Source: a virus
DNA: 23,093 nt
IMG/VR virus record: IMGVR_UViG_3300034284_000462
Location: 1-23,093 of that record
Reading direction: 5' to 3' (one strand)
Below are positions 4,317 to 8,435 of this stretch, in pieces. The position numbers were made by a program, and so were the translations under genes. A model generated the notes under the pieces. It ran no database searches. It saw nothing but the letters and a program-made list of their open reading frames with translations, and was not told where the DNA came from. Position 1 is the stretch's first letter. Each line of letters starts with the position of its first letter.

Positions 4317-4748
4317 TTAGTCGGTGGTTAAATAGATGCAGTTGAAAGTGTGCCGAGCCGTGCCGAAGCGTTTGTCTTCATCGGGCTCAATAACATAGTC
4401 CACACTGTTAAGATGGAGGTCGCGGCATTGACCGCCGAGCGTCACGTCGGCGAGGACTGCGGCCTCGACCGCCGCGCTGCCGGTGTCGAAAAGGTCGTCG
4501 ATTAAATACGTTCCGCTCTCGGCGATGAAGTAATCGACGATGAGCTGAAGCTGCCGGTATTGCGTGCGGTTGCTCGGCCCGAGCGTGCGGACCTCGATCT
4601 GCTCGCTCACGGCGTAAACCGCTGCCGCGGGAAACGAGATGCTGGCGATCGTGTTGTTGCGCCCGCGGAGGATGTTCGCCGTGGGCACGACGAGAGCGCC
4701 GGTGAGAGCGTTTGCCGTCGCGGTGCGGATGTTGGTGCGTGTGCTCAT
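4317..4748 (-). CDS. Tail terminator protein (gpU-like)
   Basis: 143 aa, ATG at 4748 coupled by a 4-base overlap to the preceding stop. The N-terminus is helical (MSTRTNIRTATANALTGAL). A central region around residues 50-75 reads IEVRTLGPSNRTQYRQLQL. The last third (ADVTLGGQCRDLHLNSVDY, then EDKRFGTARHTFNCIYLTTD in pieces) ends in strands. Size, fold pattern and the slot between the tail completion protein and the tube protein match lambda gpU, which caps the tail tube once its length is set and joins the head. Assignment rests on order plus the terminator-like strand/helix pattern. Confidence 0.72.
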   Translation of the reverse strand: MSTRTNIRTATANALTGALVVPTANILRGRNNTIASISFPAAAVYAVSEQIEVRTLGPSNRTQYRQLQLIVDYFIAESGTYLIDDLFDTGSAAVEAAVLADVTLGGQCRDLHLNSVDYVIEPDEDKRFGTARHTFNCIYLTTD

Positions 4749-5647
4749 GTTTCTTTTGGTATCACCATCCCGCCCTTTACTTTTGCGAATCCGAGGTTGA
4801 CGGCGCGATTCGCGAGGACGGCGCGGTATTTTGAGATCGTGATTTTGTAGCGAATCTTGAGAGCCGAATCTACCACGCGTTGCAGGTCAGGAATCTGGTT
4901 GCCGGTTGTCCGCGCGACTACGAACGGATTCGGCCCAAAGTGAACCTGAGCGTTTCCAGCCTTTGCCATGTGCTTGCGAATCCACGACGGCACGCGCACG
5001 CCGCACGCCATTGCCGCAGCGGCGAATCCAGCCTTCGCGAGTCCGACCTTTTTTTGCGTGTATTTCAGATACGCATTCGCCGCCTGCTCCGAAACCCACA
5101 TCTGGTCCTGCACCGCCCAGCGCCCCACCAGACTCCTCGTGACTTGCCTCCGTCTTCCGCGCTCGGTTCGGTTTGCGAAATGGAAAGCGCGCATCGTTCC
5201 AATTGATGCCGACTCCTGCCAGAACTTCCGGTAGATGCGGATTTTCTTGCCGCCTTCATTTCCCAGACTGACGCCCATCGTCTCGTGGCGCCCGCCGCGC
5301 GGCGGAACCTCCGTTGAGTTTCCGATGCGCTGGAACAAGCCAATCTGAAATTCCTTGGCCATTTTATTTCCGCCGAACAAGTCTCCGAGAATCGCGTTCT
5401 CGCCCTGCTTCCTTGCGTTCGTGCTGAGTCCGCTCGCTTTGGTTTTCGTAATCTCCCCGCCTGTGACCGTCGCCACCGTCGCGCCTTTTTTCGTTTTGTC
5501 TCCGGTCGGCGGCGTGATCTGCATGATCGCCTTCGCGACGTAGGCGGCTTCCTGTTTCACGACCAGACCGAGATCGACCTTTGCAGCGTCGGCAAGTCTC
5601 GCGAGCGCATATTCCAGCTTCTTCGTGTCTGAGAAGATCGAAATCAT
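4745..5647 (-). CDS. Tail completion / minor tail protein (gpZ or HK97 gp10 position)
   Basis: 300 aa, ATG at 5647 coupled by ATGA to the connector gene before it. The N-terminal 60 residues (MISIFSDTKKLEYALARLAD and an EAAYVAKAIMQITPPTGDKTKK-type stretch split around 33-54) look like HK97 gp10-type or lambda gpZ-type neck proteins. The middle is strongly basic (RTERGRRRQVTRSLVGRW near 160-177) and rich in Lys/Arg. It is longer than HK97 gp10 (about 130 aa) and closer to lambda gpZ (about 190 aa), so an insertion or extra domain is likely around residues 65-180. Function inferred from its lambda-like slot between connector and tail terminator. Confidence 0.6.
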   Translation of the reverse strand: MISIFSDTKKLEYALARLADAAKVDLGLVVKQEAAYVAKAIMQITPPTGDKTKKGATVATVTGGEITKTKASGLSTNARKQGENAILGDLFGGNKMAKEFQIGLFQRIGNSTEVPPRGGRHETMGVSLGNEGGKKIRIYRKFWQESASIGTMRAFHFANRTERGRRRQVTRSLVGRWAVQDQMWVSEQAANAYLKYTQKKVGLAKAGFAAAAMACGVRVPSWIRKHMAKAGNAQVHFGPNPFVVARTTGNQIPDLQRVVDSALKIRYKITISKYRAVLANRAVNLGFAKVKGGMVIPKET

Positions 5648-5964
5648 ATCACCTTCGCCACGCTGATTTCACATCCCGCGCCCTCGGCATCCAATGTCAC
5701 GCGCTCGATGAAATAGGTGATGCTTGCCCGAGAAAGCGTCTGCGTGACTTGCGGCGTGGCGCTGACGCTCGACGTCAAAAGGAACACCGTGAATTTGCTG
5801 TCCTCGCGGCGCTGGTCCTCGAAGTCGGCAAACGCATTGCTCGCCGCTGCCCAGATGCCCGTCACGCTCACGCCTTGATAAGTAAACGAGACGCCCGCCT
5901 GCTCCAAGATCGCGGAGAAGTCGGAGTTAATCTGGGTCGGGTCGAAGTCTCGCACGGCTGCCAT
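5644..5964 (-). CDS. Head-tail connector / neck protein (gpFII-like position)
   Basis: 106 aa from ATG at 5964. An AGGAGG Shine-Dalgarno sequence lies nine bases before this ATG, and the upstream stop is two bases away, so the shorter start is chosen over longer in-frame possibilities. The protein begins MAAVRDFDPTQINSDFSAIL and is a compact mixed fold (TYQGVSVTGIW around 42-52, RREDSKFTVFLLTSS near 65-79). It lies just before the gpZ-like and gpU-like genes, the slot of lambda gpFII, which closes the capsid and provides the tail-binding surface. I do not recognise a specific family. Confidence 0.62.
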   Translation of the reverse strand: MAAVRDFDPTQINSDFSAILEQAGVSFTYQGVSVTGIWAAASNAFADFEDQRREDSKFTVFLLTSSVSATPQVTQTLSRASITYFIERVTLDAEGAGCEISVAKVI

Positions 5965-5966
5965 AC

Positions 5967-6611
5967 TTATGCGCCTCCTGTAAAATAAAACCGCGCGTGT
6001 AGCTCCGGCCGGTTCGCGAGGAGCCACGGCTCCGCGTCCTCGTAGCACCGTTGCGCGTCCTGCCCGCAGGTCTGCGAGCCGACGTGGTGAACGTAGGCCC
6101 GCGAGATGAAATGCCGCCGCTTCATGTCGAGGCATTGCACGTCGTCGCTGAACCAATTTATCGGCGGGAAATCAACCCACGCGTCGCGGTGAATCCACGC
6201 GCAAATTGGCGCGATCACCGGCGTCTCGACGATATGCCGCTCGGACTGATAGCGCAGGAAGTCGATTTTCCCGCGCCCGCTGCGCACGTTCTGCTCGCCT
6301 CGCGCATAGTCCGAGCGCGTCGCGACGTAGCCGAGATCGGGCACGACCTTGCGCAGATGCGCGACATCCGCGAGGAGCAACGCCCACGTCGTCGGCGTGA
6401 ACACGATGTCGTCGTTGCAGACGACGACCTCCGAATGCGTTATGAAAGCGTTCCGAACTCCGAAGTTGTACGCCTCGCCGAAGCTGCCGCCGACGTTGCG
6501 GAAGATTATCACCTCGACGTCGCGCGGAACGTAGGCCGCGATTGACGCCTGCATGACCGCAAGGCATCGCGCGTTCGTCGTGCAGATCACGATTGCCGGA
6601 GGCGTGCTCAC
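5967..6611 (-). CDS. Small GT-A-fold glycosyltransferase
   Basis: 214 aa from a GTG at 6611 that overlaps the upstream stop by four bases (GTGA). A GGAGG lies six bases before it. Residues 5-12 (PAIVICTT) form the first strand of a nucleotide-sugar-binding fold. At 62-71 VVVCNDDIVF carries the DD metal-binding motif, and near 151-158 INWFSDDV provides a second acidic motif typical of the acceptor/catalytic side. This pattern matches glycosyltransferase family 2-like enzymes that act without a membrane anchor. No transmembrane segment is visible. Coupled to the larger glycosyltransferase before it and placed among virion genes, it may add sugars to a capsid or tail protein; DNA or host glycan are other possible acceptors. 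Confidence 0.78.
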   Translation of the reverse strand: MSTPPAIVICTTNARCLAVMQASIAAYVPRDVEVIIFRNVGGSFGEAYNFGVRNAFITHSEVVVCNDDIVFTPTTWALLLADVAHLRKVVPDLGYVATRSDYARGEQNVRSGRGKIDFLRYQSERHIVETPVIAPICAWIHRDAWVDFPPINWFSDDVQCLDMKRRHFISRAYVHHVGSQTCGQDAQRCYEDAEPWLLANRPELHARFYFTGGA

Positions 6612-7990
6612 TTCGCACCTCCGAGGATTCCCTTGATGTTCTCGGCGTCGATAAGCGTCACGCCGCTTGCCAGCACGAGCTTGTCCCAGTCGTGCGGCGG
6701 CACCATGCCGTCCTCGATGTGCACCGAGATCATCGCGCGCTCTGTTGCCCGCGGCTGTCCTACGTCGTGGATGAACTGCTTCGACATCGCCATCGTTTCC
6801 TTGTCGTCGGGGCGGACAAGGAAAACGTGCTCGACGGTGTCCGGTTGCGCTGCCGTCCCAAGCCACGCTTCACGGAAGGAGACGGAGCGCGTCGAGTCGC
6901 CGAGGGTTTTCTGCGTGAGCCGAATCGCGGGCTTTTGGTGCTTGTGAAAAGCCCACTGAAGCCCGTCCGCCTTCCTTGGATTGTCCGCGAGCCGGTAGGA
7001 CCGCGCAGCGAGATCGAGACCGGCCCAGCCATACCATTTCACCTCGTGCGTCCAAGGCCGGTCCTTCTCCTTTGGCTCTGGTAGCGACATCATGCGCTCC
7101 GCCCAGAAGCTCGCGCGCCTGCCGTCGTTGCGCTCGAACGCCAGCATGATGACGGAAGCGATGGCCTCGCGGCACCACGGGAAGACGCCGTGCGCGCCCA
7201 TAGCGAACTGCAACGCCTCGCGCCGTGACGCGACGAGCCGCGCGAGGTTGAGCTGAACCTCGTAGCGGAATGAGTCGTCGAGATTCGGGAAGGAAAGCGC
7301 GATGCGCCCGAACTGCTCGGCGGCGGTTTTGTTGCCCGCGCAATAGTGCTCTTGGTGGACGTAAAAGTATTGGGTCGCCGACTCCGCGATGCTTCGCCCG
7401 AGGATTGCGAGGTTGCGTTTCCGGTTGGATTGCTTGATCGCGACCGGCTGATGCCGCCAAACCGGCACCGTCCACTCGTTGTGCAGATCGTTCGGCAGCA
7501 GGAGCAGGTTTTCGTGCACGTCGTGGTGCCAGACTCGACCCGAGGCGAACGCTGTGCGCCGGATGATGCGCTCGCGCTGCAGCTTCTTGCCGGTCCCCCG
7601 CACGTCGTAAGGGCATCGGAGCATGAGCACGTCCTCGGTCAGCTCCTTGAGCCTTTCCCGCAGGTCCGTCGCGTCGGTCAGCACGTCGTCGCAGTCGGCC
7701 CAAAGAAGCCAATCCCCGGTGCCTTGGGCGAAGGCTTGGTTCCGCGCCCTCGCGAACGAATCGACGTGCCGCCACGCCTGCGCAGTGACCCCGTTGCGGT
7801 AGTCCGAAAAGACAATCGGGACCGCGTTGCGCTCGCACCAGTCCCGCGCGAGCTGTTCGGTGTCATCCGGTTCCTGCGAGCCGATGGCGCGCACCAGTGA
7901 GAGTTCGTCGATGATGCCGACGAACGAATCGAGCATGGTCTTGATGTGCGCGGTCTCGTTACCGGCAATCACGCAGAGGGAAATCGTCAT
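6608..7990 (-). CDS. Family 2-type glycosyltransferase with helical C-terminal region
   Basis: 460 aa from ATG at 7990; a GGAGG lies 12 bases upstream, after a terminator. Residues 1-10 (MTISLCVIAG) begin a GT-A Rossmann-like domain. RARNQ at 81-85 and DWLLWADCDD at 93-102 are the expected donor-binding and DxD metal motifs of GT2 enzymes. WHHDVHE at 154-160 fits the usual catalytic/acceptor segment. Residues about 190-380 are helical and TPR-like, as in SunS-type peptide glycosyltransferases. The last 75 residues (from about 385, EHVFLVRPDDKETMAM) look like a separate small alpha/beta domain that I do not recognise. Cytoplasmic, no membrane segment. Likely works with the coupled 214-aa enzyme; acceptor unknown. 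Confidence 0.82.
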   Translation of the reverse strand: MTISLCVIAGNETAHIKTMLDSFVGIIDELSLVRAIGSQEPDDTEQLARDWCERNAVPIVFSDYRNGVTAQAWRHVDSFARARNQAFAQGTGDWLLWADCDDVLTDATDLRERLKELTEDVLMLRCPYDVRGTGKKLQRERIIRRTAFASGRVWHHDVHENLLLLPNDLHNEWTVPVWRHQPVAIKQSNRKRNLAILGRSIAESATQYFYVHQEHYCAGNKTAAEQFGRIALSFPNLDDSFRYEVQLNLARLVASRREALQFAMGAHGVFPWCREAIASVIMLAFERNDGRRASFWAERMMSLPEPKEKDRPWTHEVKWYGWAGLDLAARSYRLADNPRKADGLQWAFHKHQKPAIRLTQKTLGDSTRSVSFREAWLGTAAQPDTVEHVFLVRPDDKETMAMSKQFIHDVGQPRATERAMISVHIEDGMVPPHDWDKLVLASGVTLIDAENIKGILGGAK

Positions 7991-8040: not shown

Positions 8041-8070
8041 AAAGCCCCACGCGGTGAGGCGTGGGGCTTT
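8041..8070 (-). terminator. Intrinsic terminator ending the HNH/cassette unit
   Basis: A perfect 12-bp stem (8041-8052 with 8059-8070, core GCCCCACGC) closes a six-base loop. Read on the minus strand it is followed by TTGTTTTG, completing a T-rich run, so it terminates leftward transcription three bases after the zinc-finger gene's stop. The plus-strand side has only TTT before CGTTAGG, so it is weaker in that direction. Its presence means the two glycosyltransferase genes need read-through or a promoter of their own. Confidence 0.85.
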
Positions 8071-8072
8071 CG

Positions 8073-8327
8073 TTAGGCAGAGTCCTGAAAGCGGCTCTTC
8101 ACTGGGTATTTGAGTTTGCCGCAGGTCGCGCAGCGAAGACCGCATTGCCACACGCCAGCGGCGTCTTTCTCGTGGTCCACGTGACCGCCGCAAAGACTGA
8201 GCCGGCACATCACGCGCCGCCACAATCCGAGCGGGCGAATCGTGTTGCGCCGCATAAAGGCTTCCTTGTGCGCCTCCGATTGTTCGTCGTTGTGGCGATA
8301 GGGTTTTCCGTCGGGGTCGGTTGTCAT
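8073..8327 (-). CDS. Small putative zinc-binding protein inside the cassette
   Basis: 84 aa from ATG at 8327; a TTG eleven codons upstream is possible but lies in the attC-like element. Cys and His residues cluster at C41, C46, H49, H52, C62, C66 and C69. The final part has two close Cys pairs (QCGLRCATCGKLKYP, 61-75), suggesting one or two zinc-binding knuckles. The N-terminus is hydrophilic. The TAA stop falls inside a GCCTAAC sequence, the same relation between stop codon and core box seen for the HNH gene. There is no clear Shine-Dalgarno sequence. I do not recognise the family. Zinc knuckle plus basic C-terminus would suit nucleic-acid binding, but that is only a guess. Confidence 0.6.
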   Translation of the reverse strand: MTTDPDGKPYRHNDEQSEAHKEAFMRRNTIRPLGLWRRVMCRLSLCGGHVDHEKDAAGVWQCGLRCATCGKLKYPVKSRFQDSA

Positions 8328-8429
8328 AGGTAATTCGTGCCTAACTGTTGCTAGAGCCAACGCCGCTGGCGTCAGCAGATGAGTGGTTTCGGTGCTCCGT
8401 CCGCGCCAGCGTCGCGGCTCACCGTTGAG
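8073..8429. mobile_element. Candidate integron-type gene cassette (357 bp)
   Basis: The segment is bounded by G^TTAGGC (8072-8078) and G^TTAGGT (8429-8435), both fitting the integron core site GTTRRRY. Its right end is an attC-like folded element (8339-8435). Removing 8073-8429 would join the HNH stop codon directly to the terminator at 8041-8070 and keep the stop intact, as expected of an inserted unit. Polarity is ambiguous: the two boundaries define the unit in the plus sense, but the only protein-like reading frame inside (84 aa) is on the minus strand. No integron integrase is in the window. Inference from site structure; not tested with a covariance model. Confidence 0.5.
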
Positions 8430-8435
8430 TTAGGT
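8339..8435. repeat. attC-like recombination site (imperfect long hairpin)
   Basis: Ends are GCCTAAC (8339-8345) and GTTAGGT (8429-8435), matching RYYYAAC and GTTRRRY and pairing over 7-8 bp. Inside are a 7/7 unpaired spacer, a 5-bp stem (GAGCC 8354-8358 with GGCTC 8416-8420), an uneven 5/4 loop, an 8-bp stem (CGCTGGCG 8364-8371 with CGCCAGCG 8404-8411) and a 32-base variable loop. This is the R box, spacer, L box, variable end layout of integron attC sites. The GAGCCAACGCCGC half resembles common attC L boxes. The HNH stop codon lies within the outer box. Confidence 0.62.

Follow-up and report, generated by a model that had tools for sequence, protein, structure and literature searches.

The question raised by this locus is how a small gene of 84 codons came to lie between an HNH endonuclease gene and the terminator behind it, and whether an integron gene cassette has entered the late operon of a phage, as the initial annotation had inferred from the letters alone. 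The window, i.e. the whole stretch of 23,093 nucleotides (IMG/VR record IMGVR_UViG_3300034284_000462), is a tailed-phage fragment encoding TerL, a lambda-type portal protein, a major head protein and a tape-measure protein. It has no DNA similarity to isolated phages, and a search against Rfam gave no match in it. At the locus the minus-strand order is capsid, HNH, 84-aa ORF, terminator and glycosyltransferase (Table 1). The HNH gene itself looks mobile: it is 98.7–99.0% identical in the related contigs L006 and L002, the flanks of which are only 75–83% identical to the window, and most relatives lack it, their capsid gene being followed directly by the terminator.

Table 1. Features at the proposed cassette insertion (window coordinates).
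Feature	Position	Strand	Remark
Proposed integron gene cassette, 357 bp	8073..8429	+ (attC polarity; ORF on -)	absent from seven HNH-bearing relatives
Left core site G^TTAGGC	8072..8078	+	crossover between 8072 and 8073
Right core site G^TTAGGT (phage target box)	8429..8435	+	present in uninserted L006, L009-L011
attC, 97 nt	8339..8435	+	R2 34.0 bits; R1 18.8 bits; 90/97 identical to G001 attC
attC parts	R'' 8339-8345; L'' 8354-8358; extra base 8359-8360; L' 8416-8420; R' 8429-8435	+	
attC inner stem, 8 bp	8364-8371/8404-8411	+	
Cassette ORF, 84 aa (MTTDPDGKPY...)	8073..8327	-	no Pfam or PHROG match
11-nt leader between attC and ATG	8328..8338	-	common to G001 phage cassette with a different ORF
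HNH/endonuclease VII-like gene, 227 aa	8430..9113	-	stop codon inside target box
Intrinsic terminator hairpin	8041..8070	-	12-bp perfect inverted repeat; conserved in relatives
Family 2 glycosyltransferase gene	6608..7990	-	downstream of terminator

The three boxes on which the inference rested, GTTAGGC, the inverted GCCTAAC and GTTAGGT, are all in place. Both outer boxes double as stop codons, one of the HNH gene and one of the 84-aa ORF, which agrees with the earlier observation that the two flanking minus-strand genes end with TAA inside a box. TTAGGC is the cassette's own 5' end and holds the stop codon of the ORF (TAA on the minus strand). GCCTAAC, the R'' box, occurs a single time on the plus strand of the window; all 7 of its bases pair with the core at 8072 that belongs to the cassette, and its pairing with the GTTAGGT box at 8429 needs one G-T wobble. 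As judged from the sequence, such pairing of R'' with the far core is to be expected of a formerly circular cassette. With both ends exactly at G^TTRRRY crossover points and R'' complementary to the cassette's own end, the segment has what is demanded of a cassette. The exact 357-bp cassette was not found in any integron array.

The uninserted state is found in relatives of the phage. Ten contigs encode a relative of the HNH protein, and in seven HNH-bearing relatives (L005-L011) the cassette is absent and the HNH stop codon is directly followed by the terminator, while most of the other relatives lack the HNH gene as well. The prediction that excision of 8073-8429 would join the HNH stop to its own terminator is thereby borne out. 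Without this segment the window reads GACCTAACGAAAGCCCCACGCC from GAC to the terminator stem, 22 nt in length, and the junctions of L005 and L007 also measure 22 nt. The target box GTTAGGT is kept in L006, L009, L010 and L011 (plus-strand view GTTAGGTCGATTG). L006, which is without the cassette, carries an HNH allele that is 98.7% identical to that of the window over the 462 nt held. Intact flanks, as a precise insertion requires, are kept in the uninserted relatives L005-L011. Identical copies of the cassette are present in L003 and L004, L016 begins within the cassette and is partial, and L002 stops at the HNH stop codon. The terminator, which lay 3' of the HNH gene before insertion, now lies 3' of the cassette ORF.

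It seems rather unlikely to us that the cassette came by homologous recombination with a cassette-carrying phage instead of by an integron integrase (IntI) acting at the locus. HNH alleles do move between phages, with 98.7% identity in the HNH gene where the flank is 75% identical, and such an exchange may explain the spread among L003, L004, L016 and the window. However, it cannot explain the first event, the ends of which are exactly the IntI crossover points.

The element at the right-hand end folds in the layout that had been described for it, with a 7-bp R stem, a 5-bp L stem (GAGCC/GGCTC), an 8-bp stem and a 32-nt end. Counting 7 bp for the R boxes leaves spacers of 8 unpaired nt; in the predicted fold one more pair forms and 7 nt stay unpaired. 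The 5/4 asymmetry places the extra base on the 5' (plus) arm. The element thus shows the four boxes (R'', L'', L' and R'), the unpaired spacers and the additional 5'-arm base that are expected of an attC. The fold z-scores are -2.3 for the plus strand and -3.3 for the minus strand. Only one of 300 dinucleotide shuffles of the whole window reached the plus-strand stem score for any RYYYAAC...GTTRRRY pair, in a test that used a simple stem score with the window's plus value as reference. In ~600 kb of related phage DNA, all matches scoring >15 are copies of the element of the window. A first attC descriptor was over-strict and missed the window's own site; a relaxed version was used.

The covariance search that the initial annotation had called for was performed with two models: R1, trained on 34 attCs located close to intI genes of bacteria and plasmids, and R2, trained on 13 attCs from one array in a bacterial chromosome (locus L309) with no phage sequence in the training set. 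With R1, the plus strand of 8339-8435 is the top match of the window at 18.8 bits (E 0.0057; minus strand 12.2 bits), which is a modest score, as many bacterial attCs reach 30-60 bits. R2 assigns 34.0 bits with E = 3.8e-8 to the plus strand and 15.0 bits to the minus strand. Since R2 also picks up attCs from integrons of other phyla (19-49 bits), it can be regarded as a general attC model. The calibrations were short, and the E-values are rough. Over the window, neither R1 nor R2 found a second convincing attC.

The polarity of the element had been left unresolved. Because both R1 and R2 score the plus strand higher and because of the homology to bacterial attCs, the attC is read as plus; on sequence grounds this settles the polarity, and the gene on the minus strand is antisense to its own attC. 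The usual, though not obligatory, sense orientation of a gene to its attC is not met, and we count the antisense ORF, unlike typical bacterial cassettes, against a cassette insertion.

A sister cassette resides in a different phage. A search with a degenerate pattern of the window attC's 5' half led to L192, which lies in G001 (IMGVR_UViG_3300003267_000135), a contig of 66 kb that encodes primase/helicase, terminase and virion proteins. The attC found there is 90/97 (93%) identical to that of the window and has an identical 11-nt leader and a different gene. The G001 integron is complete, with intI, an attI-like G^TTAGGC and three attCs (R2 scores of 35.5, 33.3 and 18.3 bits), and its cassette ORFs are on the strand opposite to the attC. 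Its IntI scores 266.7 bits, above the TIGR02249 cut-off, and seven sister integrases score 339-354 bits. The intI gene of G001 holds an NN gap, and both gene halves are flanked by phage genes; a misjoin would leave the integron in a phage, and this intI copy should not be taken as intact. In L198, portal and major head genes come after intI, and in L205, L207 and L213 a DnaB-type helicase gene is located upstream of the array. With IntI above a curated cut-off, phage contigs and adjoining attCs, the G001 clade qualifies as phage-borne integrons. The antisense arrangement is usual in this clade, where more coding sequence runs toward intI in 14/14 loci versus 12/63 bacterial or plasmid loci, and the window ORF is likewise antisense. 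These numbers come from a simple longest-ORF count, and some of the 14 loci are near-identical.

An ordinary phage gene with an intergenic hairpin could in principle also have been gained or lost by short-homology or illegitimate recombination at the CCTAAC direct repeat present at both ends, the likeness to attC being coincidental. The 84-aa ORF is in parts similar to ORFs of a related phage, and stop codons account for the TAA in both boxes. Nevertheless, we hold this to be highly improbable in view of the E-value of R2, the rarity of equally good shuffles, the pairing of R'' with the far core at 8072, and a sister attC that, with a different gene, adjoins a true intI.

In the IntI tree, the G001 clade holds viral contigs only, as does, in this sample, the IntI clade of L197-L216. 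A phage-only IntI lineage is unproven, as the bacterial set of the tree was picked by likeness to another query and as 78 of the 388 genomes searched in the G002 phylum have matches at E 1e-45 or better. In these 388 genomes, BLAST of the attC gave short, weak matches only. Other viral contigs (L220, L221, L225, L228, L252, L258, L267, L271 and L276) carry intI together with strong canonical attC arrays, the best sites of these nine reaching ~40-59 bits; some may be prophage or host fragments. In L106 (KX853513, Virus Rctr41k), an integrase at 4680-5678 that is annotated as xerD is 45% identical to IntI1 and has small plus-strand ORFs upstream; R1 found no attC in L106.

No IntI was found in the window or in its 39 relatives, many records of which may be fragments. 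This weighs against an insertion by IntI: the enzyme must come from elsewhere, and since none of the 39 relatives encodes IntI, the integrase probably acted in trans. A complete integron, i.e. intI and attI beside an array, is not present in the window, which may itself be a fragment. Neither does the window, with its one attC, qualify as a CALIN (at least two attCs without intI). L015, whose TerL is 93% identical to that of the window, has two R2 attC matches (32.5 and 24.7 bits) with antisense ORFs in a ~2 kb insertion between a small gene and terL. Together with the window cassette, the attCs upstream of the terminase gene in L015 indicate that cassettes entered this phage group at two places. 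We also noted several small ORFs and either two or three attC-like sites in the ~2 kb insert (L015 2152-4320), the flanks of which are partly duplicated on both sides. The presence of at least two attC matches at another locus of so close a relative would fit a larger integron or attC cluster in the window's phage that has eroded to one cassette. We consider such a remnant very unlikely, as the single cassette has clean boundaries, the empty sites have conserved flanks and R1 and R2 gave no other convincing attC in the window.

The 84-aa protein had been proposed as a query for integron arrays. It gave no match in the search of bacterial genome contigs, but a sister attC is present in a phage-borne integron. 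The product has zinc-ribbon-like cysteine pairs at its C terminus, as do small ORFs in L015 and in a cassette of G001. The C-terminal half of the ORF (window 8076-8243, minus strand) resembles the small cysteine-rich ORFs L015 3439-3588 and L192 1235-1408, the latter in a G001 cassette. A zinc-ribbon family carried by cassettes is possible, and a zinc-binding role of the 84-aa protein, the function of which is unknown, is a guess from the cysteines. A phage origin of the gene itself is also possible, given that a related phage has ORFs similar to parts of the protein.

Taken together, the covariance match and the empty sites support the initial inference, and we regard it as very likely that 8073-8429 is a mobile integron cassette which was inserted by IntI, whose activity is inferred, at a secondary (attG-like) site in the late region of the phage. 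An integron integrase would have excised the cassette with its 97-nt attC as a circle from a phage-borne integron such as that of G001, a step that we infer. IntI from a host integron or from a co-infecting integron-bearing phage in the same cell would then act in trans, and the folded bottom strand of attC would recombine with G^TTAGGT at the HNH stop; recombination at this secondary site is inferred because the boundaries are exact and empty sites exist. Once inserted, the 84-aa ORF would be co-directional with late transcription and lie between the HNH gene and the terminator, where it could be read from the phage's own promoters. This arrangement is observed, whereas transcription in the late operon and expression are inferred. 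The host of the phage is not established. With TerL, only 32% identical matches in two of the 388 genomes were obtained, R2 cannot assign a host because it detects attCs of other phyla too, and the likeness of the attC merely suggests Verrucomicrobiota.

Integrons have been studied mainly as bacterial gene-capture platforms, e.g. for resistance genes. Because a closely matching cassette sits in the complete integron of another phage, our findings suggest that phages trade genes via a system known mainly from antibiotic resistance. We speculate, tentatively and without holding it to be probable yet, that a tailed-phage clade with its own integrons, a separate IntI lineage and antisense cassettes trades small genes with unrelated phages, its cassettes inserting at GTT boxes in late operons of IntI-less phages. 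If true, this would constitute an inter-phage gene exchange network, and the antisense orientation may suit phage transcription; its consistency within a single phage clade makes one ask how such cassettes are expressed. What the locus contributes is a phage site known in both filled and empty form, a target box that can be named and, in the complete integron of another phage, a sister cassette; these make cassette traffic between phages testable.

In a literature search of incomplete coverage, we came across no phage insertion of a single cassette for which empty alleles occur naturally, and no clade of phage integrons whose cassettes are antisense. Qi et al. 2023 (PMC9892861) described both temperate phages that carry intI and phage CALINs, the latter having at least two attCs, and attCs of Tetrasphaera phage TJE1 recombine with attI1 (PMC9892861). 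The TJE1 cassette region has two R1 matches (18.2 and 16.9 bits), level with the 18.8 bits of the window; we equate them with the assayed sites from position only. The window resembles such phage CALINs in carrying an attC-bearing cassette in a phage genome without intI, at similar R1 scores, but differs in having one cassette instead of at least two attCs, a secondary site, natural empty alleles and an antisense ORF. Papers that PMC12901181 cites describe attG insertion in the genomes of bacteria. In general, cassette insertion at attG or secondary sites shares with the window the crossover at a GTT-type box outside an integron, with flanking bases neither lost nor duplicated, whereas the target in the window is a phage late operon and not a bacterial chromosome or plasmid. 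The chromosomal integron G140 (locus L309), from a phylum-level search centred on a Verrucomicrobia MAG, has a similar attC sequence (GCCTAAC..TAGAGCCAACG...GCGGCTCA..GTTAGGC) of equal polarity, but its cassette genes are sense to the attC, in contrast to the antisense phage ones. G001 agrees with the window in attC sequence (93% identity), leader, antisense ORFs and a stop codon in GCCTAAC, but it is a different phage that, unlike the window, has intI, an attI-like site and three attCs.
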